This document shows, piece after piece, positions 10,091 to 30,684 of a stretch of DNA of 37,856 nt. Within the stretch, counting starts at the first letter, position 1; the number at the start of each line of letters is the position of its first letter. Location: NCBI GenBank assembly GCA_030038175.1, contig JASHPN010000103.1, positions 1 to 37,856 of the forward strand. The letters run 5' to 3'. The notes beneath the pieces were generated by a model. That model was given only the letters and a program-made list of their open reading frames with translations. It did not search any database and was not told the origin of the DNA. A program made the translations under genes and the position numbers. The DNA is from Verrucomicrobiia bacterium. Lineage in GTDB: Bacteria > Verrucomicrobiota > Verrucomicrobiia > Limisphaerales > UBA11358.

Positions 10091-12721
10091 CTATATGAGC
10101 TTTAGGCGCAAATTGAGCGAACCGCCGGACGGCAGCCTGAAGCGGCGACAGCCCGCCGGCGCGGGTCCGGCGGCATTCGGCAGTTCGATGGCCTCGTCCT
10201 GTGGCACAATCAATTCACCCTGTCCGCCGGGCGGCCATTGCAAGTCCACCTCGCGTTCGCCCGACTTGCCGCGTGAGCGCAGACTTATCGGACCGCGCAC
10301 GGTAAATGCCGTTGCCTCAAATTCCTCCAAATCGCCGAATTGCGGGCGAAGTTCGAAGCGCTTGAACCCGGGTTCCAATGGTTTGAGTCCCATCAATCCC
10401 TGGTAGGCAATATAGAGCGGCACCACCCCGCAATGGCTCCATTGGTCGGGAGAATCAGGCCGGGCCTGCCAGTTCTCCTGCAAAGTGTTGTTTTCCTTGA
10501 CGGAGCGCAAGGTGGCCCAACGCCGCCGAAGGTCCGTTACAATGGCATCTCCGCGTCCGCCTTTGGCCAATGCCCACATGCGCCAGCATTGATTGGCCGG
10601 ATAGGAAAAACCCATCTCGGGAGGACACTTCACCAGAGAATCCAGCGCGGCGGCCGTGTGGTTGCCTGGACACTGGTCAAAGAGAATGGACGTTGCCAGG
10701 GAACGGTCGCATGTGCGCGGCGTTTTGTCCTGGTCGAGCCACGGCAGGTTATTGATAAAAAGCCCTTGTTCCACGCTCCAAAACCGGCGGACAGTCGCCC
10801 GGGTAAGCTCCTTGCCAAATCGTTCAACGGCTTTTGCCTGCCGGTCATCTCCAAAAGAGCGGCAAATGGGCGCCAGCGCCTGTTCCATTGCCGCGGCCAC
10901 ATACAGGTTAAACGCGCATTGCTTGTGTCGCTGTTGTTGATAGGCGTTATGATCCATCCAGACACAGGGAATGCCGAGATTTTCAACCGGCAACAGGCCG
11001 TCAGGGCCCTGCAAGCCCTGGAGATATTGGGCAAAGCGCAACAGGCGCGGATAGGGTTCCTTCAACGCTCCCAAATCGCCGGTATAAAAATAATGATGCC
11101 GGCAATCGAGCATAAATCCCACGCCATGATCCAGAATCGAGCCCCATTGGGAAAGATCAAGCTGCCGTTCCATGAGCCGGGCCAGACGGTCATAGGCGGG
11201 CCAGCAGTCCAAAAAATAACCCTCTTTGGTCATGCCCTGGCTCCAGGTCGTCAGGTAACGGCGGACCAGGCGCGGTTCGCCGACTGCCAGATGCACCGCG
11301 TGCATTTGGTGGCCGCCATCGCCGCTGTATTGCTGGCGCTCGCGCGCCATGCCGTCCACGAGCGTTTCCTGGGCGCAATTATTGAGAGTGTTCATTGACG
11401 CATCGAACAGACGTTGGAGCAGGGGATCGCTCGTGCGCAGGACGGGTGTATTGGGCCATGGAAAAACGCGCCGCCGCACTCGAATATTGGAGATATTGAC
11501 CGGTCCTTTGGCGTTATAGATATGGAGCTGGACCCAGCGCAAGCTTTCGAAATCGAAGGTCTCGAAGTCGTTTTTGCCCTCGCGGCAAATGAACCGGGTC
11601 CAGGAGTCAAAATGGGTGTTTAAAAGCGGCGGGCCGCCCGTGGCATGGGCTTCATGAACCAGGAGTTCGATGGTTGTGCCTGCAGGCGCTTCAATCGCAA
11701 AGCCGGGCCAGCCCACCACTTGTTCGGCAAGTTCAAATGTCAGCGCGGCAGACTGGCCGCCATCCAGTTCCACCCGCCATTGGCCGGGAGCATTTTCGAT
11801 GGCCAAATCCGCGCGTCGCGCATGAAAGGCGTTCGGGATACGATAATCGAAGTAGTCCCGTGGCGGGACGCGCCAATCCAGCCAATAGGCTTCAGCCAGT
11901 TTGGTGACGGGCACAAACGATTCCCGCATGGCGGGAATGCTGCGGGGCCGCAGTTCGGCATCGGAAGGCCCCCGGTCTAACTCGAGCATGTATTCGGGAT
12001 AACTGGTTGAAAGCGCGGGCTGGTTCGGAGAACCCGTCAACGGCATCGCGCCAACCCAATGGGAATCCATTTGAAAATCCGGGCTGGACCAATTTTGCGG
12101 ATAAAGCCGGGCGTCAAACTCCTCTTGTAACGCCCGCAAGTACCAGCGCTTGGGGTGCCCCAAACTCCATGCCCGGCAAAGCAGGGTCTGCCATGATTCG
12201 TCTGAGACGAGCCGCTCAACTGTCCCGTCCGCGTGCTCGATTTCCAGCCAGAAAAGGAAGCCCGGTTTGCCGAGGGGCCACGTGCCATCGCCACTGCCGT
12301 AAAACAACACGGTGGCGCCCAGCACATTTTCTCCCGGTTGCAGATCATCCGTCAGGTCCACCGGATCCGCCTCGGTCCAGCGAGGATCGCACGGCGCCGG
12401 TCCCCATTGCACGCGTCTGCCGTTGACTTCAAGCCGATAACGGCTGTCAGCGCAAATCCAGCCGGTGGCGCGACGAGGCCTGGCGTGTAAGGCCAATGAT
12501 TGACGAAATAGAACAAACGTGTTTGGCAGCGTGCGCCCCGAGGGATACCAAACCCAGCGGGCCGGGGAGAGGTCCGGGAGCGTGGCCCTGGAATTATCGG
12601 GCGAAGAAGCCGGCTGGATAAGCCTGGCGGACGAATTTGCCGGATCGGCAGAAGCGGCCTGTGCCAACAGGAGGGAACCGCCGGCCGCCGCGGATGTTTT
12701 AATAAATTCGCGCCGGTTCAC
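10091..12721 (-). CDS. Tat-exported GH78 alpha-L-rhamnosidase
   Basis: Predicted alpha-L-rhamnosidase of 876 residues, removing terminal L-rhamnose from glycans. It starts with GTG and a twin-arginine signal (NRREFIK, then a small-residue hydrophobic stretch to about 25), so it should be exported folded. Residues about 54-185 form the beta-sandwich N-terminal domain of bacterial rhamnosidases, with WVW, a DSRYRLEVNGRRV strand and a DLQPGENVL turn. The catalytic (alpha/alpha)6 barrel (about 425-780) carries the family signature around DGMARERQQYSGD (456-468), and a C-terminal beta domain follows. It heads a four-gene minus-strand operon (rhamnosidase, GH3 and two six-hairpin proteins). A promoter with a palindromic operator lies 58-110 bp upstream. 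The same N-terminal domain type recurs in the histidine kinase at 26737-28233. Confidence 0.87.
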   Translation of the reverse strand: MNRREFIKTSAAAGGSLLLAQAASADPANSSARLIQPASSPDNSRATLPDLSPARWVWYPSGRTLPNTFVLFRQSLALHARPRRATGWICADSRYRLEVNGRRVQWGPAPCDPRWTEADPVDLTDDLQPGENVLGATVLFYGSGDGTWPLGKPGFLFWLEIEHADGTVERLVSDESWQTLLCRAWSLGHPKRWYLRALQEEFDARLYPQNWSSPDFQMDSHWVGAMPLTGSPNQPALSTSYPEYMLELDRGPSDAELRPRSIPAMRESFVPVTKLAEAYWLDWRVPPRDYFDYRIPNAFHARRADLAIENAPGQWRVELDGGQSAALTFELAEQVVGWPGFAIEAPAGTTIELLVHEAHATGGPPLLNTHFDSWTRFICREGKNDFETFDFESLRWVQLHIYNAKGPVNISNIRVRRRVFPWPNTPVLRTSDPLLQRLFDASMNTLNNCAQETLVDGMARERQQYSGDGGHQMHAVHLAVGEPRLVRRYLTTWSQGMTKEGYFLDCWPAYDRLARLMERQLDLSQWGSILDHGVGFMLDCRHHYFYTGDLGALKEPYPRLLRFAQYLQGLQGPDGLLPVENLGIPCVWMDHNAYQQQRHKQCAFNLYVAAAMEQALAPICRSFGDDRQAKAVERFGKELTRATVRRFWSVEQGLFINNLPWLDQDKTPRTCDRSLATSILFDQCPGNHTAAALDSLVKCPPEMGFSYPANQCWRMWALAKGGRGDAIVTDLRRRWATLRSVKENNTLQENWQARPDSPDQWSHCGVVPLYIAYQGLMGLKPLEPGFKRFELRPQFGDLEEFEATAFTVRGPISLRSRGKSGEREVDLQWPPGGQGELIVPQDEAIELPNAAGPAPAGCRRFRLPSGGSLNLRLKLI

Positions 12722-17891: not shown

Positions 17892-18851
17892 TTAAAATGG
17901 CCAGGCATAGCCCTGGGCGGGCGCTGTGACATGCGGGGCCAGCCAGCCGCAATCTTCCTTGGCTCCATCCCTCTGCGTTTCCGGAACAGTGCTGCCGGTA
18001 AAATCTGGTATCAGTCCCGGCTGCTGCCAGCGATGGATTTCACAATGGCCGTCGGCAAACCCAAAACTCTGGCCGTTGTCGTGCCATTTGGTCGGCACAT
18101 CCACCCATAAATAGGATCCTGGACTGGGATTGGCCGGCATCTCAAAGGCAAAATCAGGATTGTTCTTGCTGTCGGGATCCTCTTCGGTAAATACAAACAG
18201 GTCAGAGGGTCCCGGATCAATGACGTCTCCGTCTTTATCATAGCTGCGATAAATCGGCCTGCTATTTCCCAAAGGCGTACCGCATCCCACAATAACGGCC
18301 CACTGGCCCTGCGGGCTTGAGGGCCCGGGACCATTCCGGCTCCAGTCTGACCCGGGGCCAACGGTCTGGCTCATGTCATACGTCAATACGCGCGGCGCGC
18401 CCGTCAAACCAAATTGTTTGCTGATGTCCGCGGGACACCTGTACACCCTCGGATCCGTGACATACAGGGCCAACAGGCTGTACTGGGAGTCCACCAGCCT
18501 GACCCAATTCGTGTCATCCACATAGCCGCTGTAATCCTCCTCACAGGAGACCCAATCCAGTTTGTCAATAATGGTCGTGCTCGTGGTCGTGGGATTCATC
18601 GGGAAATTGCCGCTGTTGTCGCTCGTATATTCTTTCCAGCCGATCAAAATCTGGCGCAAATTGGCCATGCACTGGACCCCTTGCGCCTTTTTCTGGGCTG
18701 CGGCAAGCACCGGCATGAGGATGGCCGCCAAAATCGCGATGATGGCAATGACCACGAGCAATTCGATGAGCGTAAAGGCGCGTCCGGGCGGCTTCTGGCT
18801 CGCCGCCGATGCGCTGCCGGTCAGGCTTGTCGTCTCTGACGAATCACCCAT
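17892..18851 (-). CDS. H-X9-DG type pseudopilin (prepilin-like secreted protein)
   Basis: A 319-residue protein with a 25-residue basic/polar leader followed by the prepilin-peptidase site and hydrophobic helix (A|FTLIELLVVIAIIAIL, Glu at +5). It should be processed and assembled or anchored like a type II secretion pseudopilin. The soluble part contains repeated Trp/Asp-rich loops and ends with H-DNGQSFGFA-DG, the H-X9-DG signature of the large Verrucomicrobia/Planctomycetes pseudopilin group. The chosen ATG (18851) is preceded by GAAAGG with 4-base spacing and gives a leader of the same length as the neighbouring paralogue; an ATG at 18908 would add 19 residues. Its role is unknown. The position inside a glycan-degradation cluster suggests surface display or substrate capture. 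Confidence 0.87.
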   Translation of the reverse strand: MGDSSETTSLTGSASAASQKPPGRAFTLIELLVVIAIIAILAAILMPVLAAAQKKAQGVQCMANLRQILIGWKEYTSDNSGNFPMNPTTTSTTIIDKLDWVSCEEDYSGYVDDTNWVRLVDSQYSLLALYVTDPRVYRCPADISKQFGLTGAPRVLTYDMSQTVGPGSDWSRNGPGPSSPQGQWAVIVGCGTPLGNSRPIYRSYDKDGDVIDPGPSDLFVFTEEDPDSKNNPDFAFEMPANPSPGSYLWVDVPTKWHDNGQSFGFADGHCEIHRWQQPGLIPDFTGSTVPETQRDGAKEDCGWLAPHVTAPAQGYAWPF

Positions 18852-18981
18852 AGCGCCTTTCGCTCTATGGGAGGAAGTCGAGCAATCTTTTGGTTTCCTG
18901 TTCTTCATAACTTTACGGACTGGAGATCGTCTGTTTCTAATATTTAAATGTTCATGCAAATGTCGCAATGTCAATAGCATT

Positions 18982-19048
18982 TTTAAAAAATCGCACATTT
19001 GTCCTGCCAACGGATGTCAAGTGACGGTCATGGCGTGCCTCCAATACC
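18982..19048 (-). promoter_or_regulatory. Possible promoter of the first pseudopilin gene
   Basis: TTGGCA (19005-19010, minus strand) and TTTAAA (18982-18987) are 17 bp apart, the same -35 word and spacing as at sites A and B. About 31 bp further upstream GGTATTGG (19041-19048) repeats one half of the site A/B operator and the bases next to it, but without a convincing second half. Transcription would start near 18975, leaving a leader of about 120 nt. Confidence 0.35.
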
Positions 19049-19133
19049 TGGGGGGTTCGTGCGAACTTCACAATATCAGGGGCGGAAGCCGTCACTTTTT
19101 GAATTCGCTGGCGCGGGTCGGCCTCGTGTGTTG

Positions 19134-20132
19134 TCAGGGCTGATAAGTGGAACTGGGCGCGCCCACCGCCAGGCAGGTCGTGCGATGGGCGACCCAAAGG
19201 ATGTCCGCGTCCTTGGGTGCGGAAGTGGCTGTGCCTCCAATTTCAGCCGATTCATCGGCCGCCCAAAACATTTGGGGAATCGAGCCGGAATCCAACCATT
19301 CATGCACTTCCGCATGGCAGTCCGCAAAGGCAAATTCACAGGCATTTTCGTGCGCTTTGGTCGGCACATCAACCCAATAGGTCGCCAAAGGGGACGTCGG
19401 CATTTCAACGGCGAATGCGGCGTCATTGATGCTGTTGGGATGCTCCTCCAGCAACACCCACAAATCCGACGGCGATATGCCCTGGATCGAACCATCCCTG
19501 ATAAAAACTTTCCAGGGAAAGCCTCCCGGAGCGGCCTGATTTCCAGTCGAAAGCCAGTGACCCAGAACGTGGCTGCCGCTGACCGTCAGCCCATTCTCGA
19601 GCGGCCCCACTGCCTGGCTCATCGAATACGAGCGAACCCGCGGTTGCTCGTTCGCTCCCGTGCCTGCGGTCCCCCAGGTGCTCAGGTCCGCGGGGCATTT
19701 GTAGATCGCGGGGTTATTGACGTAAGGTCCCAGCACTGAATAATGCAGTTCCACCAAAAGCTGTTCGTTGGTCGCGTCTATGCCGGCATAAGTGGGCCAA
19801 CCGGGTCCGCCCGGCGTCACGGTCCCGCCCCGCATGTCCCCCGCGACCCAGCGGGGATAGGAGTTGTAATCCGGGCTGGGAGGAAAGCTGCCCGCATTGT
19901 CATCCGCATACATCCTCCAGGCAATCATCAACTGCCGCAGATTATTCATGCAATGAACCTGCCGCGCCCGGATCTCGGCTTTATTAAGCACCGGCATTAA
20001 CGCAGCCGCTAAAATGGCGATAATGGCTATGACCACCAGCAATTCAATGAGCGTGAACGCGCGCTCGTGCGCCTTCCCGCTCACACGCGATCCGCTCAAG
20101 GCCAAACGTGGATTGCCTGTTGGATCGTCCAT
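19134..20132 (-). CDS. H-X9-DG family pseudopilin, paralogue with a Gly-to-Cys change in the motif
   Basis: A 332-residue paralogue of the downstream pseudopilin. It has a 25-residue leader, the same processing site and helix (A|FTLIELLVVIAIIAIL), a conserved CMNNLRQLMIAWRMYADDN segment, and a C-terminal H-ENACEFAFA-DC, where the family's DG is DC (codon TGC, one base from GGC). Start ATG at 20132 was chosen because it gives a leader of identical length to that of the paralogue; an ATG at 20159 is possible. The gene lies 65 bp (38 bp from the longer start) downstream of the LamG protein, so the two are probably co-transcribed from site B. Function unknown beyond the pilin-like assembly class. 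Confidence 0.86.
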   Translation of the reverse strand: MDDPTGNPRLALSGSRVSGKAHERAFTLIELLVVIAIIAILAAALMPVLNKAEIRARQVHCMNNLRQLMIAWRMYADDNAGSFPPSPDYNSYPRWVAGDMRGGTVTPGGPGWPTYAGIDATNEQLLVELHYSVLGPYVNNPAIYKCPADLSTWGTAGTGANEQPRVRSYSMSQAVGPLENGLTVSGSHVLGHWLSTGNQAAPGGFPWKVFIRDGSIQGISPSDLWVLLEEHPNSINDAAFAVEMPTSPLATYWVDVPTKAHENACEFAFADCHAEVHEWLDSGSIPQMFWAADESAEIGGTATSAPKDADILWVAHRTTCLAVGAPSSTYQP

Positions 20133-20197
20133 GAGTCCGTCTCTGGTATTGGGCAACATGTTCCAGCAATCGTTCGCCGGACCTTTTTTTATCGTCC

Positions 20198-23100
20198 CTA
20201 CGGATAGATCAAGCGGTAGAACACGCTGCCATTGGTCAGATTGATGGGAACAGTAATCTCATTGGTATTTTGAGAATTAGGCACATTCACCCAGTTGGTG
20301 CCAAGGCCCACCGACAACTTGTTGGTCTGCGCCTGCAACTGCCATCCAATATGGTCGCTGGGCCAGCTCAAAGAGAGTTGCTTGTTCGTGACCTCAAACA
20401 CGATGTTGGTTGGGCCGGAGTTGAAGATGGAGACCGTCAATGAAGCGTTGGTGCTTCCCCAGGCATTGCTCACAGTCAATTGCAACTGGTCGCCATTCCA
20501 GCTTAAGGGAACATTGGGGTAGCTCAACGATACGTTGCCGCTGGCGTTGTTGGCCGTGCCCGCCGCGATGCCGGCGCCGGTAGTCATGTTTGTCCACCAA
20601 TAATTCATCGGGGGCGATCCCAGGGCCGTCACCGGGACGGTGAGAGTATAATTGGCGGCGCCGTTGCCGGTGGCAGGCGGAGTCGGGGCAAAATACGGCG
20701 AATTGGTGCCGCCGCCGGCGATATATTCGTTCTCCACCTCGAGCGGGCTTAACGCATAATTGAAGACGGCCACGTCGTTCATATAGCCTTCGAACTGATT
20801 TTCCAGGCTGGTGCCGACCGTTGCGGATCTTGCCCCGATGCTCATCTGATAGGTGGACGCCAGTATGCCGTCGCCTGAAGGCAGAGACGCCGTGCCCACC
20901 GGTTGGCCGTTAATGTAAAACACCACGTCTTGATTGGAAATTTCATCCACCACGCCTACCAAATGATACCACGTGCCGAGCAATGGGGACACGGCGCTGC
21001 TGACACCGTGCGTGATGCCCGAGGCGTCGCGGATGAAAAAGCGGAAACCGTGAGTGGTGAGCGTGTCTGAACCGCAATCCAAATTAAATTGCTCCCCGCC
21101 GCCGCCCCAACCCAGCGTCACCATGCCGGCATCGTAAGTCTGCACATAGCCATTCACCCAGGCTTCCACCGTAAAGGCCCTGCTCGAGCCGTAGGGCGTG
21201 CTAAAATTAATGCCCGCAATCGAGTTGGCGTCCTCATTGCCATAGTCGGTGTTATTGCCGTCAGGATCGTCGCCAAAATCGGCGGAAGTGTCCGAGGGAT
21301 CGGTGGTTGGATTGTAGCCCTGCTGGCCAAGCAATACGTTTGTATAGATGCCGTTGTTGCCACCGACATAATCTTCGCAAACGTATCCATTATCTCCGCC
21401 CCCATTGTCCGCTCCATCCAGATTGACGTCGTTCAACCGCCAGTAGCCGATCGGATTCAATGCCAGGACATTTGTTGGATAAGGAGCTGGTGGATCGGCA
21501 ATGACCTGCGCCGTCCAGACCATGCTGGTGATTGGAAGGGCATAGAGGTTCGTGACCACGCAATAATTGGTGAAGAAACCGATTTGAACATTGTTCATCA
21601 CCAAATTGCTGGCGGTCACTGCGGTGTCCCACACACCGTTGGTGTACCAGTGATAGGCAAAGGGTGGCGGCGCGCCGCCGACTTGCACCGAGAAACTGGG
21701 ACTGGCCCCCTCATACAAGGTGAAGAGGTTTGTGTAGGTGGCCGGAAGCTGGCCGATCAGTGTTGGCAGGATGTTGATGGTCAATTCCGCCACCGCGCTC
21801 GTGACGACGCCTTCGCTGTTGGTTACGACGACATAGTAGTTATTCGTGTAAACCCCATTGTGGACGCTGGCCGCTATGACATTCGTGGCCACAAAGGTCA
21901 AAACTCGATTGGTTGGGCCGAACGCAGTGACGTTCTTGCCACCGAAATTTGCCGGCTGACCATTAGTGACCCACTCATAATTCAGGGCTGGTGCTCCAAT
22001 GGCCACAAGGTCGAAGGTCGCGGTTTGGCCATAATTCACGGTGACATTCCCCGGCTGGTTGGTGATGTAGGGCGCATTGGTCAGCGCCGTGCTGGTGCCG
22101 GTCAAACCGTACACATCAATGCCATTCTGGGCCAGATTCTCCGGGTTAGTGTTGGTCACTATTAAGGTGAGCGTGTTGGAACCCAACTGGAACCCGCAAT
22201 TTGTGCCCGTGAACGAGAAAGGATCCGTTTCGACCCCGCCGGCATACACACCGTTTAAGATGATGTTGGTCACGCCATTGATGATGCACTGAATTTGAGA
22301 GCCGAGTTCCCCTCCGGCTGTTTGCAGGATCCCCGACAGCGTGGCGTTGGTTGGGGTTCCCTGGTCAATGACAAAGCTCGTGGTATAATCATAGACTCCG
22401 GTTTCAGTGCCGCTTCCGTCTTCCGGCCCGATCCACCCCGTCGGCGGCGGGGCCGGATTAAAGCCACTGCCGCTGGGAATGATGGTCCAGACCATCGCGT
22501 CGGGAATGATGCCATTCGGGTCCGGATCCACTGGCAGCGCCCAGTGCGGGTCAGCGCCGCCCACGTTCGTCAGCGAAGTGCCATTGTTCGCCTCGCCGGT
22601 CATGTAAAGACCATCAAAGCTTTGCAGGCCGACGGTCACCTGGACGACGGCGCTATTGGTGCCGCCATAGGCATTCGTCGCCGCCAGAAAATAACCGCCG
22701 GTGTTGAGCGCGGTGACGTTGGTGATGATCAAACTCGAATTGGTTTGGCCCGCCAGCAAATTCGTGACGCCGTTGGCGATTTGATACCACTGCTCCGTCG
22801 CGACCGGCAAGGAACCAAACACCACCGGGATCAACTGCAGGTTCACAGAATTGGCCACGGTCTCGCTGGTTGGAAGCCCGGCTACAGTGGGCGGCTCTGG
22901 AATATTGGTGTAATTGAAAACCATTTGGTCCGGATGCAGGCATACCTCGCAGATACGAACCTCGTCAATGTTGCCATCAAATCCCGCCCAGGAGAGATTT
23001 TCAGTGCTTACATTCTCGCGAGCGCTGCAGCCAATGTCGAGGACCGGGGTTTCGCCGGTCAAAATGCCGACGGTCGAAGTATATTTAGTGTTGTTCAAGG

Positions 23101-23992
23101 AGACGTTGGTCTGCCACAAAACATCGCAATTAGTCCGGGCCGGATCCATCAAAGTCCAATAGGTCGTCAATATGTTGGGCGTATCGCCATTGGTCGGGGC
23201 GTTTCCCGTATAGGTGACTGCCACATGATACCACTGTCCCTGAATGGCGGCGTCAGGGCCGTTGGTGGGAATAGGCGTGAGAGTACTGCCATACTGAACG
23301 TTGCCGATTGTGGAGCCGATGGCGAAAAAATCCAAATCCGCCCCCCCGCCGGTGATCGGATAGACGCCAAAGATAAATCCGCGAGTTCCGGCGGCACTGT
23401 CGGCGCACAGAATATCCTGCTGGCCATTTGGCAGATTTTGCGGGTTTTCGTCCAGATTAATCAGCGCCTCCATCGTGAACGCGCCGCTAACCGGGTTGCA
23501 GTAATTGGCGAGGTTTTCATAAACTGCGGTGGTCGCTGTTGGAACGGGATCAGACGCACCCGCTGGAGTGCCATAGTTAAGACCCTGTTGCATATAGGAG
23601 GATTCATTCGTCGTGAGTATGCAATAATTATAGCTCACATAGGGGACTCCATTCGTATAGGCTACGTAGGCCGGCTGTGCGTTGGACGCAAACTCAGTGG
23701 CGAGTGCGCCCCCATTGGCCACCGTGGGGAACGCGGGATTTCCCGGGACGTTGGTCATGGTAAAGCTGCCGACCCATCCGGTAAGGGAGGCCTGTTGGTT
23801 GCTCAACGCGTCATAGGCCAATGTGCCGCTGGTTTCGTCAAAGTGCCAAAGGTGCAGGGTGTTGCCGTCCACCGGATAGGGACCGGTCAAACCCGCGCGG
23901 CTGGTCCAGGCGCCCGCCATGGCCATGACGGCAAGCACGGTGCACAGACTGATACGGCCGCGGAATGGGGTCATCATCTCTCGAGTCTTCAT
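20198..23992 (-). CDS. Large secreted LamG/Ig-domain protein
   Basis: A 1264-residue exported protein, probably sugar-binding or surface-attached and not catalytic. After a signal peptide (about 1-33) there is a concanavalin-like LamG jelly roll (about 40-360; start LHLWHFDETSG, end DEVRICEVCLHPDQM), then an Ig-like domain (about 365-455). A middle section of Ig-like and other beta domains rich in Asn, Thr and Val follows. A second LamG domain lies at about 845-1090 (IGYWRLND to VAVFNYALSP). The C-terminal 60 residues (LSLSWPSDHIGWQLQAQTN to VFYRLIYP) resemble the tail of the GH16 enzyme in this window. No hydrolase motif was found. It is the first gene of a unit with the second pseudopilin, and its promoter carries operator site B. 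A role in holding glycans at the surface is inference. Confidence 0.8.
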   Translation of the reverse strand: MKTREMMTPFRGRISLCTVLAVMAMAGAWTSRAGLTGPYPVDGNTLHLWHFDETSGTLAYDALSNQQASLTGWVGSFTMTNVPGNPAFPTVANGGALATEFASNAQPAYVAYTNGVPYVSYNYCILTTNESSYMQQGLNYGTPAGASDPVPTATTAVYENLANYCNPVSGAFTMEALINLDENPQNLPNGQQDILCADSAAGTRGFIFGVYPITGGGADLDFFAIGSTIGNVQYGSTLTPIPTNGPDAAIQGQWYHVAVTYTGNAPTNGDTPNILTTYWTLMDPARTNCDVLWQTNVSLNNTKYTSTVGILTGETPVLDIGCSARENVSTENLSWAGFDGNIDEVRICEVCLHPDQMVFNYTNIPEPPTVAGLPTSETVANSVNLQLIPVVFGSLPVATEQWYQIANGVTNLLAGQTNSSLIITNVTALNTGGYFLAATNAYGGTNSAVVQVTVGLQSFDGLYMTGEANNGTSLTNVGGADPHWALPVDPDPNGIIPDAMVWTIIPSGSGFNPAPPPTGWIGPEDGSGTETGVYDYTTSFVIDQGTPTNATLSGILQTAGGELGSQIQCIINGVTNIILNGVYAGGVETDPFSFTGTNCGFQLGSNTLTLIVTNTNPENLAQNGIDVYGLTGTSTALTNAPYITNQPGNVTVNYGQTATFDLVAIGAPALNYEWVTNGQPANFGGKNVTAFGPTNRVLTFVATNVIAASVHNGVYTNNYYVVVTNSEGVVTSAVAELTINILPTLIGQLPATYTNLFTLYEGASPSFSVQVGGAPPPFAYHWYTNGVWDTAVTASNLVMNNVQIGFFTNYCVVTNLYALPITSMVWTAQVIADPPAPYPTNVLALNPIGYWRLNDVNLDGADNGGGDNGYVCEDYVGGNNGIYTNVLLGQQGYNPTTDPSDTSADFGDDPDGNNTDYGNEDANSIAGINFSTPYGSSRAFTVEAWVNGYVQTYDAGMVTLGWGGGGEQFNLDCGSDTLTTHGFRFFIRDASGITHGVSSAVSPLLGTWYHLVGVVDEISNQDVVFYINGQPVGTASLPSGDGILASTYQMSIGARSATVGTSLENQFEGYMNDVAVFNYALSPLEVENEYIAGGGTNSPYFAPTPPATGNGAANYTLTVPVTALGSPPMNYWWTNMTTGAGIAAGTANNASGNVSLSYPNVPLSWNGDQLQLTVSNAWGSTNASLTVSIFNSGPTNIVFEVTNKQLSLSWPSDHIGWQLQAQTNKLSVGLGTNWVNVPNSQNTNEITVPINLTNGSVFYRLIYP

Positions 23993-24245: not shown

Positions 24246-26540
24246 TCAAGACGGCCGGCTGCTTGCGCCAATTTGAATCGTGTGGCGACCCGAGCCAATG
24301 TTCTCAATTTTCAGCAGCCCATCGTAAGCAGTCTCGGAAATGGTCTTCCCGTCCACATCCACGGCCGCATTGGCCTGCCCCGGGGCAGGCAGGAGAACCG
24401 TCGCCGTGACATTGCCGGGAATATTGACCAAAAGCCGGAACGATTCTGGCCCCCTCGTTGCCTGAACGGAAACCGGACCTCGAATCGTCGGAACCGTGCC
24501 CTCTGCCCAGGACAAAACAGTTCCCAGTTGAGGCTGGATCATAATCCGCCCGCCACCCGGCGTTAACGGGCGAACACCCAGCACAAACCGCGAGATTAAA
24601 TTGGCCGGGGCCGCGCCCCACGCATGGTTCCAGTCTGTGTTCTTTTTATCCGCAAAACTCCAGGCCTCGGTCGTGAGCGTGGAGCCCATGCGAATCATGT
24701 TCAGCCAACTGCGCGGACCATTGGTCGTCATCAAATCAATCGCCGTATCCGCGTCGCCGGATTGAAACAGCCCTTCCAGGAAATATTGCGCTCCATAAAC
24801 GCTTGGGGGCATTCCGTCGTCCGCCGCAATCCGCGAGTGCAGCCAGGCGATGACCGCGGCTTGCCGATCGGCCGGCACCAGGCCCAGGGCCAGCGGAAAA
24901 AAATTGGAGTGAGCCGACGCATGCGTCGTTCCTACGCCGTCCACGTAGCATTCCGAATTGCTGTCCCAGAACGTCGCGTTGTAGGTCTTATAAACCTGCG
25001 CGGCCATCGTATCGTAGTCTGCCGCATCATTGGTTTGGCCGACGACTGTCGCGATCTTTGCCATGATTCCTAAGCAACGATAGTAAAATGCGTTGTTTAC
25101 GGAATTGGTCCAATTCAGATAATCGCCCTCTCGAATGACAAAACCGTCCCGGTCGTCGGGCGGCCAATCCACCACGTCGGAGTTGGTGCGCAGCGGAAAG
25201 TCCGGAAATCCTTTAATCAGGCCGTCGCCCGCGGCCGCCCAGCTTAAAAGGTCCGGCTTGAGGGCGTCGTAATACCGGTACAGCAAATCGGCGTTGCCGG
25301 TGTGCAAATAATCCGCCCATGCCATCAGGATCATGTGAAACTTCCATTCCGTCGGCCAGGTGGGATGTTGCAGCAGGTACTCGAACGTGGCGCGCGGCAT
25401 GGTGAATTCACGGTCCACCGCATAGGCGCTCAATTGGTGTATATAGGCGTCAGCTTCGTACGGCCGCCGTTCACGGTCGCCGTCCACGTAAATGCCGTCA
25501 AAGGTCAGCATCTCCATCGAGTTCCGGCACAGGGTCCAAACCTGGTTCAACGCGGGGCTGGAACATTTGAAATTCGCCGCGTTCGTGTTGAATTCATCCA
25601 ACAGCCGCTGTTGCGTCACATCTCCGGCCGTTAGCGTTCCCGGAAAATGAAGCAGTTCAAAATAGCGAAACGGCATGACCACTCCATAACTCGGCGGCGG
25701 ATCAATGGTCGTCCGCGTGTTGTACGGAGGATACGCGGGAGGATGAATCGGGCAAATCGCATCGCCTCCGGGCAGCGTGAGCTCAAGGTTCGTGTAACGC
25801 ACCAGGCTTTGGTCCGGCGGACATGTATCCACGGCAAAGCCGCTGGCCATCTCTCCAAACCGCGCCTCGACCGCGGTTCCGCCGGGCGCGCCGTGCAAAT
25901 GAACCGTGACGTAACCGAAAGCGTCCTGGCCAAAATCAACAAACCAGCGCCCGGGAGCCGTATTGGTCACGAGCACGGGCGGCGCCGCGACAAAACGCAG
26001 CGGATAGCGATTGGCCCAGATATTTGAGGAGGCGTCGTAGTACAACCCCGCGGATGGCAAACCGTCCGGATCATCCCCGGGCGAATCAGCCGGCTCGTAC
26101 AATGCCGTGTCCGTGCGGAATTGCTGGATGGCGGACATGGGACTCATCCGGCCCGCGGTATCCTCGGTTTGTACGCGCCAATAATAATCAGTGTCGCCCC
26201 GCAACTTCCGGCCGCCATACGGCACATTGATTGAATCCGAACTCTTGACCAGGCCCGAATCCCACAGATCGCCCGTTCGCTGTTCCGCTAAAACCGCGCT
26301 GGATGCCACGATAATCCGATAGCCGGTTTGCGCGTCGTTCCGTTTCGCCGGGTTATAGATCCATCCAAAGTCCGGCACGGCAGTGTTAATGACGGTCTGC
26401 TCAGGGTGCGCCAGTAAATCACAGAGCAGGCCGGTGGGCGCCCGGGGTGATGCGGCACTGGCCAAAGGTGAGAAGAATCCCACAATACAAACGGCAGCCG
26501 TGCCGGCTATCGCCTGAAGATTTAAAGAAATGTCAGCCAT
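24246..26540 (-). CDS. Secreted GH78-like alpha-L-rhamnosidase
   Basis: Predicted exported alpha-L-rhamnosidase-type enzyme of 764 residues. A Sec signal peptide (about 1-30) is followed by a fibronectin-III-like domain (about 34-142; PDFGWIYNP, YYWRVQTEDTAG) typical of the start of bacterial rhamnosidases. Next come beta domains (about 175-310) and the (alpha/alpha)6 barrel, whose signature DGDRERRPYEAD lies at 353-364, followed by W-P-T-E-W-K-F-H. A C-terminal beta-sandwich closes the protein. It is more distant from classical GH78 than the Tat-exported enzyme at 10091-12721 and lacks that enzyme's N-terminal beta-sandwich. It is divergent from the sensor kinase gene, and both promoters flank the same palindrome (26624-26640). 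Rhamnosidase activity is the best guess; another L-sugar is possible. Confidence 0.8.
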   Translation of the reverse strand: MADISLNLQAIAGTAAVCIVGFFSPLASAASPRAPTGLLCDLLAHPEQTVINTAVPDFGWIYNPAKRNDAQTGYRIIVASSAVLAEQRTGDLWDSGLVKSSDSINVPYGGRKLRGDTDYYWRVQTEDTAGRMSPMSAIQQFRTDTALYEPADSPGDDPDGLPSAGLYYDASSNIWANRYPLRFVAAPPVLVTNTAPGRWFVDFGQDAFGYVTVHLHGAPGGTAVEARFGEMASGFAVDTCPPDQSLVRYTNLELTLPGGDAICPIHPPAYPPYNTRTTIDPPPSYGVVMPFRYFELLHFPGTLTAGDVTQQRLLDEFNTNAANFKCSSPALNQVWTLCRNSMEMLTFDGIYVDGDRERRPYEADAYIHQLSAYAVDREFTMPRATFEYLLQHPTWPTEWKFHMILMAWADYLHTGNADLLYRYYDALKPDLLSWAAAGDGLIKGFPDFPLRTNSDVVDWPPDDRDGFVIREGDYLNWTNSVNNAFYYRCLGIMAKIATVVGQTNDAADYDTMAAQVYKTYNATFWDSNSECYVDGVGTTHASAHSNFFPLALGLVPADRQAAVIAWLHSRIAADDGMPPSVYGAQYFLEGLFQSGDADTAIDLMTTNGPRSWLNMIRMGSTLTTEAWSFADKKNTDWNHAWGAAPANLISRFVLGVRPLTPGGGRIMIQPQLGTVLSWAEGTVPTIRGPVSVQATRGPESFRLLVNIPGNVTATVLLPAPGQANAAVDVDGKTISETAYDGLLKIENIGSGRHTIQIGASSRPS

Positions 26541-26595
26541 TGTTCCTGCAAGTTCTCAATGTTTACTCGCTCCGGGCAAGTCCAATATTTGCGGC

Positions 26596-26640
26596 ATCAT
26601 ACATTATGGAGTGCTTGCCGTCATACCACCCAAATGGGTG
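26596..26640 (-). promoter_or_regulatory. Promoter of the divergent rhamnosidase with shared operator (site C)
   Basis: On the minus strand ATGACG (26619-26624) and TATGAT (26596-26601) are 17 bp apart and make the best -10 of the three sites. The operator TACCACC-CAA-ATGGGTG (26624-26640, plus reading) touches the -35, as at sites A and B. Its core CACCCA-AA-TGGGTG (26627-26640) is a perfect palindrome. Transcription would start near 26589, about 49 nt before the ATG. Confidence 0.6.
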
Positions 26641-26675
26641 AGTGGATTGACGCGCCGCGAATCATCCTTTATTTT
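26624..26675 (+). promoter_or_regulatory. Operator and promoter of the sensor kinase gene
   Basis: On the plus strand TTGACG (26647-26652) and TATTTT (26670-26675) are 17 bp apart and give a predicted start near 26682. The palindrome used by the divergent rhamnosidase ends 6 bp before this -35. One operator could therefore serve both directions and give autoregulation. Confidence 0.55.
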
Positions 26676-26736
26676 AGCTGTCACTGTGACTCCGAATCTC
26701 GCACGGCCGGACGAAAACGTTTCGCTGCTGTCTCGT

Positions 26737-28233
26737 TTGAAGCATGGAGTTACCGTGTGCGTCCTTTGTATCCTGTCCGCTGCCGGCTTGACCGCCCGTG
26801 CCGAAACCAATGCGGCTGCCTCCCTTTCCAATGCTCCCAACATTTATGTGGACTATGGGCAAACCCCGCCTTCTTACAATGCTGTAAAAAGGGCGACCAA
26901 TGGCCTCGGCTGCTGGATTTGGGCACAGCAAGTTCTGGATAAACAGACCATTTATCTCTGGAGAGCATTCCAGGTCCCTCAATCAGACCCTGTCGTTCAT
27001 GCCCAACTGAGTATCTCAGCGGACAATGCCTTCACGGTTTGGCTGGACGGCCAGGAAATTGGCGCCGGCAGCGATTGGCGGACCTTGAGCAGTTACGAGC
27101 TAAGCGGGAAATTGGCCCCGGGAACCCACGTCCTGGCGGTGGAGGGATTTAACGATTGTGATAAAGCAGGTGTGATCGTTGGTTTGCGCCTCAAATTGGC
27201 GGATGGGCGGATTTTGAATATTCCTTCAGATACAACCTGGCGCGTTGTCCCGCGTCCGGTATCGGGTTGGCAGACGGCCGCCAAACCACAGGAGGGTTGG
27301 CTCCCGGCAAGGTTTATTGCGAGGCTCGGCCAGGGTCCCTGGTGGGCCATTCCAACCACGGTGGCGCATATTCAGGGCTCGCTTCCGGAACCCGTGCCAT
27401 TCTGGCGAACTTCCCGCTTTCAATTCATTCTGTTTACCGGTTGCGCCGTTTTTGTCCTCGCGGGCCTTTACCTGCTGATTCAATTGGCGATCCAATCCAA
27501 AACCCACAAATTTCTTCAAATCGAACGCGACCGCATCGCGCGCGATATTCATGATGATCTTGGGTCAAAGATCACCCAGCTCCTGTTGACGGGCGAAGCT
27601 TCCCAAATCAGGCGCCATTCGCCTGTGCCCGACAGCGCTTCCGCCGACCCGGTGCTTCAAATGTGCAGCGGGGCGCGCGATATTTTGGCTACGATTGACG
27701 AGATCATCTGGATCGTCAACTCACAACACGACACGCTCAATGATTTCGCGATCCACGCCTGCAAATACACGGAACGGTTCCTGGAATCCTCGCTGATCCG
27801 CTTTCGCTTTGACGTGGATGAGTTGCCGGGCAAAAAACTGACGCAGCTTGCGCGGCGCAATCTCTTTCTTGCTGTCAAAGAAGCCCTGAATAACTCCGTC
27901 AAACATTCTCACGCCACCGAACTGACTGTGCGCATCAGATTGGAGGGTTCGGCATTCAAGGTGATTGTGGAGGATAACGGCATTGGCTTTGATGGCCGGC
28001 AGGTAAATCCCGAGCGCAACGGATTAAATAACGTGATGTTGCGGATGCACGAAATCGGCGGCAGTTCCGAAATCATCAGCCGCCCGGGCGAGGGGTGTAG
28101 AATTTGTCTTTCCTGTCCCCTGATAAAGCCGCGGTTCCATCATTTTCTTTCTAAGCCGGCGCATCCCGAGGGCGCCGCCGGGCTGCCCGCGGATCGCGAG
28201 ACGGGGCTGCCGGCAAAACCAATGCGAACGTGA
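26737..28233 (+). CDS. Sensor histidine kinase with a rhamnosidase-like periplasmic domain
   Basis: Membrane kinase of the HisKA_3/NarX type, 498 residues from a TTG start. It has a signal peptide (about 1-22), a periplasmic beta-sandwich (about 50-175), one membrane helix (about 229-252), the phosphoacceptor His272 in RIARDIHDDLG and an HATPase domain (N-box EALNNSVKHSHA, G-box DNGIGFD). A tail of about 35 residues follows. The periplasmic domain can be aligned by eye with the N-terminal domain of the Tat-rhamnosidase: WIW with WVW, SADNAFTVWLDGQEI with ADSRYRLEVNGRRV, LAPGTHVLAVEGF with LQPGENVLGATVLF, and PSDTTW with VSDESW. An in-frame ATG at 26530 would place the promoter inside the gene and bury the signal peptide, so I prefer TTG at 26737, although no Shine-Dalgarno site is visible. 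The response regulator follows with a 4-base overlap. The sensed ligand is presumably a rhamnose-containing glycan (inference). Confidence 0.83.
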   Translation: MKHGVTVCVLCILSAAGLTARAETNAAASLSNAPNIYVDYGQTPPSYNAVKRATNGLGCWIWAQQVLDKQTIYLWRAFQVPQSDPVVHAQLSISADNAFTVWLDGQEIGAGSDWRTLSSYELSGKLAPGTHVLAVEGFNDCDKAGVIVGLRLKLADGRILNIPSDTTWRVVPRPVSGWQTAAKPQEGWLPARFIARLGQGPWWAIPTTVAHIQGSLPEPVPFWRTSRFQFILFTGCAVFVLAGLYLLIQLAIQSKTHKFLQIERDRIARDIHDDLGSKITQLLLTGEASQIRRHSPVPDSASADPVLQMCSGARDILATIDEIIWIVNSQHDTLNDFAIHACKYTERFLESSLIRFRFDVDELPGKKLTQLARRNLFLAVKEALNNSVKHSHATELTVRIRLEGSAFKVIVEDNGIGFDGRQVNPERNGLNNVMLRMHEIGGSSEIISRPGEGCRICLSCPLIKPRFHHFLSKPAHPEGAAGLPADRETGLPAKPMRT

Positions 28234-28910
28234 AGACCACCCTCCTTGGAACGGAACCGCCGGTCAAATCTGTGACCCGGGTTGCTTTGGTCGAAGACCA
28301 AAAGGAATTGTGCCGGCAGTGGGCCGGGATCATTGATACCTTCACGGACATTGAGTGCGTTGGGACCTGCGCTTCGGGCGAAGAAGCGGCCGAGCGGATT
28401 CCCCAATGGGCGCCGGACGTCATCCTCATGGACATTCGTTTGCCCGGAATGTCCGGAATCGAATGCACTTCCCGGCTTAAGGAACTGTTGCCGGCGACGC
28501 CCATCGTCATCCTCACGGTATTGGACGACGACGAATTGATTTTTCGGGCCCTTGAAGCCGGAGCGGATGGTTATCTCCTCAAGCGCTCCAAACCCGTTGA
28601 CCTGCGCGCCGCGCTGCTCGACGTGCTCAATGGCGGCGCCCCCATGAGCAGCGCGATTGCCCGCCGCGTGGTTTGCTCGTTCAAAAAAACATCTCCCAGG
28701 CTGGCGCACGTGCAATTGTCCGCGCGCGAGGCGGAAGTCTTGAAATTCCTGTCGCGCGGTTTCTCCAACAAAGAGATTGCCAGCCAAATCGAACTGAGCG
28801 TTGAAACCGTGCGCACCTATCTCAAAAGCATTTACAAAAAGCTGCATGTCCGTTCCCGCACCGAAGCGGTGCTTCATTACGGCTCCAGCCGGCCAGGAAG
28901 CCCCCCATGA
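28230..28910 (+). CDS. NarL/FixJ-type response regulator, partner of the rhamnosidase-domain kinase
   Basis: Cytoplasmic response regulator of 226 residues. The receiver domain has the acidic pocket Glu22-Asp23, phosphoacceptor Asp68 in ILMDIRLPG, the Thr of VILTVLDDD and Lys in YLLKRS. The C-terminal LuxR-type helix-turn-helix is complete (LSAREAEVLKFLSRGFSNKE, then IASQIELSVETVRTYLKSIY). The GTG start overlaps the kinase stop (GTGA), indicating translational coupling and a cognate pair. Regulators of this class bind heptamer pairs such as NarL's TACYYMT in 7-2-7 arrangement. The palindromes at 12815, 24110 and 26624 have this kind of geometry and are plausible targets (inference). Confidence 0.92.
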   Translation: MKTTLLGTEPPVKSVTRVALVEDQKELCRQWAGIIDTFTDIECVGTCASGEEAAERIPQWAPDVILMDIRLPGMSGIECTSRLKELLPATPIVILTVLDDDELIFRALEAGADGYLLKRSKPVDLRAALLDVLNGGAPMSSAIARRVVCSFKKTSPRLAHVQLSAREAEVLKFLSRGFSNKEIASQIELSVETVRTYLKSIYKKLHVRSRTEAVLHYGSSRPGSPP

Positions 28911-28981
28911 AGCCGGGAAATCACAACGCCTTGTTTGTTTGTTTCTTTGTTGTTAAATAAATCCATGCCCGTTTGCCGGAT

Positions 28982-30034
28982 ATGAGCGCATGGACGGAAC
29001 AATTCGAAAAACGGCCGAGGATTTTTTCCGCCTCGGTCAGTGTGGCGCTGGTCGCCCTGATTGGGTTGATTGACTATCTCGCCGGGTACGACATTTATTT
29101 TTCCGCGTTTTATTTGCTTCCCGTCGCCATCGCCGCCTGGTTTGTTTCCGGGACGTTTGGGGTCATCATTTCCCTGTCGAGTGTGATTGTCTCCGTGGCC
29201 GGCGATTATGCCGCCGGGGCGCGTGGCGTCTTCGTTCCGGTTTGGAACGGAGCCATCGCCCTGACGGTTTATTTTGTGGTGGTCAAAGCCATCACCTCAT
29301 TGCGGCGGCTGCACAATGAGCTGGAAGAACGGGTGCGCCAGCGGACCATCGCCTTGAGCAACGAAATGCAGGAACGTGAGCGTCTGGAAAAGGAAATCCT
29401 CGCCATCAGCGAACGGGAACAGCTTCGCATTGGGCATGATTTGCACGACACCCTTTGCCAGCATTTGACGGCCACCGCGATGGCCGGGCAGGTGCTTGGG
29501 CAAAAGCTCGCGGCCAAATCCGCCCCGGAAACGGCAGATGCCAGGGAAATTGTAAAGCTCGTTGAGGAAAGCATCACCTTGACTCGAAATCTGGCGCATG
29601 GAATTGCTCCGGTGGAGATGGAAAACGAAGGCCTGATTACCGCACTGCAGGAATTTGCCGCGAACATCTCGCAACTCTTCAAAGTTAATTGCCGGTTCGA
29701 TGCCGATTCTCCCCCCATGGTTCACGACTCCGATGCGGCGACGCATTTGTACCGCATCGCCCAGGAAGCTGTGAATAACGCCATCCGTCACGGCAAGCCG
29801 CACCAAATTGTGATGAGCCTTTCGGCCCAAAGAGGGCGGCTGGAGCTGACCGTCGAGGACGACGGAACCGGCCTGCCGGAAGATTGGCAGAAAAACCGCG
29901 GCCTGGGCACCCGCATCATGGCGCATCGCGCGGCGATGATCGGCGGGACCTTTTCCATCGAACCCAATCCGACCGGCGGCACGTTTGTGAAATGTTCATT
30001 CCCGCTTGCCACCATTGCCATGGACCCCCTATGA
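28982..30034 (+). CDS. Membrane-embedded HisKA_3 sensor histidine kinase
   Basis: Kinase of 350 residues with an N-terminal membrane domain of about four helices (residues about 15-105) and almost no periplasmic part. It therefore probably senses something in or at the membrane. A coiled-coil linker (about 107-145) leads to the phosphoacceptor His155 in GHDLHDTLCQHL and an HATPase domain (N-box EAVNNAIRHG, G-box DDGTGLP, then RGLGTRIMAHRAAMIGG). I chose ATG at 28982; an in-frame TTG at 28973 would add three residues. It follows the first regulator by 71 bp and overlaps the next gene by ATGA. It differs completely from the first kinase in its sensory part, so it serves another signal, possibly envelope stress linked to the efflux operon downstream. 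Confidence 0.9.
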   Translation: MSAWTEQFEKRPRIFSASVSVALVALIGLIDYLAGYDIYFSAFYLLPVAIAAWFVSGTFGVIISLSSVIVSVAGDYAAGARGVFVPVWNGAIALTVYFVVVKAITSLRRLHNELEERVRQRTIALSNEMQERERLEKEILAISEREQLRIGHDLHDTLCQHLTATAMAGQVLGQKLAAKSAPETADAREIVKLVEESITLTRNLAHGIAPVEMENEGLITALQEFAANISQLFKVNCRFDADSPPMVHDSDAATHLYRIAQEAVNNAIRHGKPHQIVMSLSAQRGRLELTVEDDGTGLPEDWQKNRGLGTRIMAHRAAMIGGTFSIEPNPTGGTFVKCSFPLATIAMDPL

Positions 30035-30684
30035 GCCAGAAGAAAATTTTTGTTGTGGACGACCATCCGCTGGTGCGCGAATGGCTGGCAAACCTGATCC
30101 ACCAGCAGCCCGATTTGTTGGTTTGCCGCGAGGCGGAAACCGCGGCGTCCGCGCTGTCGGGCATTGATTCAACCAAACCTGACCTGGTGATTGCCGACAT
30201 CAATTTAACGAACTCCTCGGGCATTGAATTGCTCAAAGATCTGCGGCAACTGCATCCGGAGATTCCGGTGCTCGTCCTTTCGATGCATGACGAGTCGCTG
30301 TACGCGGAACGCGTCTTCCGCGCGGGCGCGCGCGGCTACGTGAATAAACGTGAAACGGCGCAAAAAGTGGTCGAAGCCATCCGGCGTGTGCTGGAAGGAA
30401 AACTTTATGTGAGCGGAAAGGCCGCGGAAATTCTCGCCGGCAAATCAGTTCGCGGAGAGCCTTTGAACCGGCCGGCGGTGGAGTTGTTGAGCGACCGGGA
30501 ATTGGAAGTTTTTAACAAGCTGGGCCAGGGAATTGGAACCAGGCAAATCGCGGCGGATTTTCACGTGAGCGTCAAAACCGTCCAGGAATATTGCGCGCGC
30601 ATCAAGGAAAAGCTCAAGCTGGCCAGCGCCACGGAATTGCTGCGCGAAGCCGTCCGCTGGTACGATTCCGATAAAGCCGGGTGA
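30031..30684 (+). CDS. NarL/FixJ-type response regulator, second pair
   Basis: Response regulator of 217 residues with Asp10-Asp11, phosphoacceptor Asp56 in IADINLT, Ser of LVLSMHDES and Lys in YVNKRE. The C-terminal LuxR-type helix-turn-helix is LSDRELEVFNKLGQGIG followed by TRQIAADFHVSVKTVQEY. The ATG lies in the ATGA overlap with the kinase stop, so the two are translationally coupled. The frame stays open upstream of this ATG, but those codons lie within the kinase gene and encode no domain. The RND efflux operon starts 86 bp downstream, making it a candidate target. Confidence 0.92.
   Translation: MSQKKIFVVDDHPLVREWLANLIHQQPDLLVCREAETAASALSGIDSTKPDLVIADINLTNSSGIELLKDLRQLHPEIPVLVLSMHDESLYAERVFRAGARGYVNKRETAQKVVEAIRRVLEGKLYVSGKAAEILAGKSVRGEPLNRPAVELLSDRELEVFNKLGQGIGTRQIAADFHVSVKTVQEYCARIKEKLKLASATELLREAVRWYDSDKAG

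Follow-up and report, generated by a model that had tools for sequence, protein, structure and literature searches.

The window (the whole stretch of DNA analysed, 37,856 nt) carries a gene cluster in which GH3, GH92, GH16 and further GH78-type genes, as well as a LamG/Ig exoprotein gene, are found around a sensor histidine kinase gene. The open reading frame carrying the kinase is located at 26530-28233 (+) and encodes 567 aa; the TTG at 26737 fits as the start, because it yields a convincing signal sequence and agrees with the alignment to a paralogue. The genes and features of the locus are:

12185 to 12532, minus strand: N-terminal domain of the GH78 rhamnosidase encoded at 10091-12721, a distant homologue of the kinase sensor, carrying D,S and Y at the positions of D,N and N in the latter
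17892 to 20159, minus strand: two prepilin-like (N_methyl) genes, of a family recurrent in related loci (domain match, neighbour clustering)
20198 to 23992, minus strand: large secreted LamG/Ig protein (Laminin_G_3, 1.2e-25), relatives of which are often found after the regulator gene elsewhere
24246 to 26540, minus strand: GH78 rhamnosidase, divergent neighbour of the kinase (Bac_rhamnosid6H, 2.8e-50; Ig_Rha78A_N, 1.7e-23)
26541 to 26736, no strand: intergenic region between the divergent GH78 and kinase genes, a candidate target of the regulator by its position only
26737 to 28233, plus strand: sensor histidine kinase, very probably CBM67-type, TTG start (ATG at 26530 possible), from Pfam and the family alignment
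26746 to 26802, plus strand: N-terminal hydrophobic segment, signal peptide or first transmembrane segment (hydropathy peak at residue 4)
26908 to 27351, plus strand: predicted jelly-roll sensor, very probably CBM67-type, residues about 58-205 (AF2, VIA, NCBIfam model)
27022 to 27027, plus strand: Asp96-Asn97, predicted Ca2+/sugar ligands (conserved in 33/34 and 34/34)
27076 to 27081, plus strand: Trp114-Arg115, adjoining the predicted site (W/Y in 33/34, R in 26/34)
27151 to 27153, plus strand: Asn139, predicted third Ca2+ ligand (conserved in 33/34)
27424 to 27480, plus strand: transmembrane helix with a conserved FWQ.GWFQ in front (hydropathy 2.53; alignment)
27529 to 27726, plus strand: HisKA_3 dimerisation domain with phospho-acceptor His272 at 27550-27552 (RIARDIHDDLG motif)
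27856 to 28122, plus strand: HATPase_c with N, G1 and G2 motifs (Pfam; invariant N385, N386, D413 and G415)
28230 to 28910, plus strand: NarL-type response regulator, overlapping the kinase stop (Response_reg, 9.6e-25; GerE, 1.8e-18; NarL model, 4.3e-38)

The window kinase has the H-box, the N and G boxes and the HATPase_c domain of a HisKA_3-type kinase, and the kinase motifs are conserved across its relatives in the family alignment. In Pfam searches, HATPase_c scored over the cut-off (38.7 bits, E 1.5e-9) and HisKA_3 slightly under the cut-off of 24 (22.7 bits, E 1.5e-4), which is exceeded by relatives. A NarL-type regulator gene was found directly downstream of the kinase gene in all 35 loci with a contig long enough. 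An earlier sequence-only reading of this locus had proposed a NarX/NarL-type system, which is borne out by HATPase_c and the weak HisKA_3 match in the kinase together with the adjacent regulator. In one member that is otherwise intact (L063), the phospho-acceptor His is replaced by Gln (RIARDIQDDLG). A second pair of a HisKA_3 kinase and a NarL-type regulator directly follows the first in the window (28973-30684), with HlyD/efflux-type genes from 30771.

The periplasmic domain of the kinase can be assigned to the CBM67 type with high confidence. CBM67 is a Ca2+-dependent module that has been seen with rhamnose bound (PMC4690510), and the Pleurotus ostreatus lectin (POL) has two Ca2+-dependent sites of the CBM67 kind (PMC10876731), which are built on an Asp-Asp pair (PMC11512411). 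A profile of 34 sensors compared with PDB sequences matched POL (E 1.3e-27) as well as residues 138-297 of Streptomyces avermitilis Rha78A (SaRha78A, 3w5m; whole-chain E 6.2e-21), with 54 bits for this CBM67 region vs. only 21 bits for the next domain of the chain. The window sequence alone matched an NCBIfam Streptomyces alpha-L-rhamnosidase model (E 9e-16) at model residues 153-296, which represent the CBM67 segment. Moreover, the AlphaFold (AF2) model of the sensor was all beta (pLDDT 89.8), with 3w5n as its best Foldseek match (8e-12). VIA Z values were 20.3 for POL and 19.4-19.5 for SaRha78A with rhamnose over chain residues 132-299 (rmsd 2.3 over 153 residues at Z 19.4 for the superposition on the CBM67 of 3w5n), supporting the jelly-roll fold expected from the earlier reading; other folds gave 16.9 (BsRhaB D1), 16.5 (two other GH78s), 10.2 (3cih) and about 7 (GH2).

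The sequence-only reading had compared the sensor with the N-terminal domain of the GH78 rhamnosidase encoded at 10091-12721, and the similarity of the two does exceed chance (BLASTP E 8e-5, 24% over 92 aa); a sensor-family profile run on the whole genome also found this N-domain (E 9.5e-5), as the weakest of seven own-genome matches. That the sensor is a GH78 N-terminal (Bac_rhamnosid_N) domain recruited from such a rhamnosidase would furthermore agree with the weak Bac_rhamnosid_N matches in 24 of the 34 sensors at E up to 1 (best 8e-7; Glyco_hydro_2_N matched 33/34) and with BsRhaB D1 as the next best fold. However, CBM67 and POL are far better matches by sequence and also better, to a lesser degree, by fold, the metal/sugar site residues differ, and a midpoint-rooted tree built from 66 domains, some of them on long branches, resolved the 36 kinase sensors as a single clade (100/98) apart from a group (98/92) that holds the GH78 N-domains, including that of the window, making this origin highly improbable. 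In the window sensor alone, neither Glyco_hydro_2_N nor Bac_rhamnosid_N was above the Pfam cut-off, the latter (PF08531) reaching E 0.13 and 12.5 bits vs. a gathering score of 25, and Bac_rhamnosid_N was rejected as the sensor identity on this result and on its position apart in the tree. Given the tree separation and the differing site residues, the fold and the general idea of the earlier reading stand, while its assignment to the Bac_rhamnosid_N/BsRhaB-D1 family falls. Similarly, an accessory-type glycosidase domain is indeed present on the kinase, but derivation from a GH78 enzyme in particular does not follow, since numerous PVC exoproteins of unrelated kinds, among them cytochromes c and GH106, contain the same module. 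Recent shuffling of the CBM67 of a neighbouring GH78 into the kinase was rejected because the kinase sensors form one clade. A chance or low-complexity resemblance with no carbohydrate-binding fold, which would fit the lack of any Pfam match over cut-off in the sensor of the single window sequence, is refuted by the profile, structure and NCBIfam results and has next to no probability.

The residues Asp179, Asn180 and Asn228 of SaRha78A, which we take to be its Ca2+/rhamnose ligands, align to Asp96, Asn97 and Asn139 of the kinase in the HMMER alignment. In addition to these Asp-Asn and Asn positions and to the fold, the SaRha78A CBM67 shares 29-30% identity and a Trp-Arg motif with the sensor; it differs in being attached to an enzyme rather than forming the periplasmic input domain of a histidine kinase, and the loop near its Pro233 is one residue shorter in the kinase. 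POL (6t1d, 6kc2), the best match by both sequence profile and fold, is a fungal lectin that has Asp-Asp instead of Asp-Asn and no signalling domain. At the site, where the window GH78 N-domain has D,S and Y, three other GH78s of the same genome show H,N/D and W or H, while the site pattern is largely retained in CBM67-type modules on other proteins. As the same residues are found in CBM67-type modules of many PVC exoproteins, their conservation is no proof of sugar signalling. Modules with largely intact site residues were also seen on PVC cytochrome c/DUF7133 exoproteins (L043, L044, L050, L051 and L052). His occupies two of the site positions in one kinase sensor (L082; AHN, AFHD), which may reflect an altered ligand or metal.

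A search of genome contigs with peptide patterns derived from the window kinase alone gave no matches. One paralogue is present in the same genome (sensor identity 69%), and an alignment of four kinases led to 32 more full-length relatives from verrucomicrobial subdivision 3, related MAGs and two Planctomycetes. In total, at least 51 CBM67-type sensor kinases were identified, mainly in one verrucomicrobial order and in Planctomycetes. Such kinases were present in 3 of 388 genomes spread over the phylum and in 33 of 293 genomes of the order to which the window belongs (16 of 118 genera), with up to five copies per genome. A related CBM67-type module was found in 117 of the 388 genomes, and in the cases examined its carriers were mostly large exoproteins (cytochrome c/DUF7133, GH106, GH78 and HZS-alpha-like). 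The use of the module on kinases is one branch of a general PVC module of the sugar-binding type.

A link to rhamnosidase genes, also claimed from the sequence alone, was found to be real, yet it is concentrated in one subclade. Among loci with enough flank, a rhamnosidase gene, either GH78 or the unrelated GH106, was nearby in 13 of 45 kinase loci vs. 1 of 48 control kinase loci (p 0.0003 in a Fisher test, which ignores relatedness); the GH106 cases include L071 (5e-180) and L187. On the kinase tree, the rhamnosidase label required five changes compared to a shuffled mean of 11. A single 16-member subclade holds 11 of the 13 positive loci, 11 of its 13 scoreable members being positive, and five of the GH78s that adjoin its kinases carry a CBM67 of their own. 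The window kinase lies outside this subclade, in a genome of 5.39 Mb that encodes about 14 GH78 catalytic domains scoring above the cut-off. Neighbours of other kinases differ; the paralogue is found with an arabinose/fucose-isomerase-like gene, a GH43-CBM6 gene and a sugar transporter gene, and the copy in genome G308 is near an alpha-galactosidase gene. The regulator gene is followed by a large gene (650+ aa), in most cases of the exoprotein type, at 19 of 26 loci vs. 9 of 33 controls (p 0.0006), and an exoprotein cluster is nearby in 27 of 35 loci vs. 9 of 48 controls. The prepilin-like neighbours were rejected as a specific partner, as the same family was found in 7 of the 48 control loci. 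The exoproteins of many loci share a C-terminal end like LSWPADHLGWRLQAQTN..GLGTNWV...VFYRMIYP (window 20201-20400, minus strand; L078:8382-8591), possibly a sorting signal of the order.

Taken together, we favour, with some reservation, a function of the kinase as the sensor of a CBM-based, glycan-responsive two-component system, in which CBM67 would hold Ca2+ and a sugar and drive the NarL-type regulator. In the proposed mechanism, Ca2+ would be held via Asp96, Asn97 and Asn139 and would itself contact the hydroxyl groups of a sugar within a plant-type glycan; the best candidate for this sugar is a terminal alpha-L-rhamnosyl residue, followed by a galactose- or arabinose-like one. Sugar binding may then alter how the domain packs against the single transmembrane helix and the short juxtamembrane linker, which is rich in Trp (FWQ.GWFQ), and this change could switch autophosphorylation of His272, from which the phosphate would pass to the regulator encoded directly downstream. 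The regulator would turn on the divergent GH78 rhamnosidase gene and probably the LamG/Ig exoprotein genes as well. That the signal for the window kinase is a glycan appears likely, and the kinase probably reports the presence of plant-type glycans.

The identity of the sugar can be suggested only tentatively; for the window copy, a ligand containing rhamnose has a little under an even chance. It is quite possible, if somewhat doubtful, that the kinase is a glycan sensor with a ligand other than rhamnose, specificity being clade-dependent (arabinose, galactose, fucose). POL has been solved with rhamnose, melibiose and GalNAc, and the neighbouring genes of the family vary in type (arabinose/fucose-isomerase-like and GH43, alpha-galactosidase, GH2 beta-galactosidase), both of which are consistent with such a change of ligand; however, the window kinase is divergently arranged with a GH78 gene in a cluster that contains more GH78-type genes. 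Less probable, and in our view unlikely, is that the CBM67 fold and metal site have been kept while a protein or envelope partner, such as the LamG/Ig exoprotein or a cell-surface polysaccharide, is sensed, so that the genes under control would be those for surface proteins and prepilin-like proteins and not those for breaking down glycans. The enrichment of large genes after the regulator and of exoprotein clusters, and the absence of rhamnosidase genes from most loci outside the one subclade, point in this direction; against it stand the conserved sugar-site residues, the glycosidase domains fused in cis to some family members and the rhamnosidase linkage in the 16-member subclade. Glycan and exoprotein outputs are not mutually exclusive, since the exoproteins carry lectin-like LamG domains.

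Like NarX/NarL and UhpB/UhpA, the proposed glycan-responsive system combines HisKA_3 and HATPase_c with a separate NarL-family regulator; its sensor domain is presumably unrelated to those of NarX and UhpB. Two-component glycan sensing is known in Bacteroides and clostridia, and the Bacteroides hybrid systems likewise sense glycans across the membrane beside glycosidase genes (PMC10766802). In those hybrids, a single polypeptide with periplasmic propellers contains the kinase, the receiver and an AraC domain, whereas the window kinase is not a hybrid, has neither an AraC domain nor a beta-propeller, and is paired with a separate regulator. In Clostridium thermocellum, the biomass-sensing RsgI anti-sigma factors are membrane signalling proteins with an outer CBM or GH10 (PMC4711584). 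This Gram-positive system differs in its anti-sigma output and in its CBM3, PA14, CBM42 or GH10 rather than CBM67 modules, and the window kinase has kinase domains instead of an RsgI N-domain and a SigI partner. No description of CBM67 on kinases was found in the literature searched, the coverage of which was incomplete; two papers that mention both CBM67 and histidine kinases are genome descriptions, judging by their titles. A lectin-type CBM on a classical kinase would be a further design beside the Bacteroides hybrids and the clostridial RsgI proteins. Verrucomicrobiota are important degraders of plant and algal glycans whose substrate recognition is poorly known; a lectin input with a known binding mode makes the ligand, the metal dependence and the target genes directly testable, and the kinase family offers annotators a way to predict the glycan served by a cluster.

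Several natural variants carry additional modules outside the membrane. In five genomes, kinases of 931-940 aa (L180, L181, L182, L183 and L184) combine a CBM32-like (F5/8-type) domain, a GH43-like domain, CBM67, a transmembrane segment and the kinase, with Ala at the position of Trp114. The GH43-like domain was found by Pfam in all five members (best 4.4e-10) and by an NCBIfam arabinofuranosidase model (2e-21), and the GH43-type motifs RDP, DAT and EGP are invariant, so that activity appears possible from the sequence. Assignment by structure was abandoned, as the AlphaFold model of this part (pLDDT 40) was unusable, and the GH43-like identity is based on Pfam, NCBIfam and the motifs. These GH43-fused forms would be enzyme-linked glycan receptors. 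It is conceivable, though we consider it rather uncertain, that single or tandem CBM67 lectin modules and competent-looking glycosidase domains wired to NarX-type kinases represent a class of glycan receptors not described so far from Verrucomicrobiota and Planctomycetota, in which a single protein could both cleave a polymer and detect what is released. A further kinase of 1062 aa has a WbsX domain, presumably GH99-like, in front of CBM67 (5.9e-49; L187:3871-7056, minus strand) and is encoded near a GH106 gene. Two kinases have tandem CBM67 sensors in a POL-like arrangement (L185:3980-6208, minus strand, and L186:8192-10348, plus strand).
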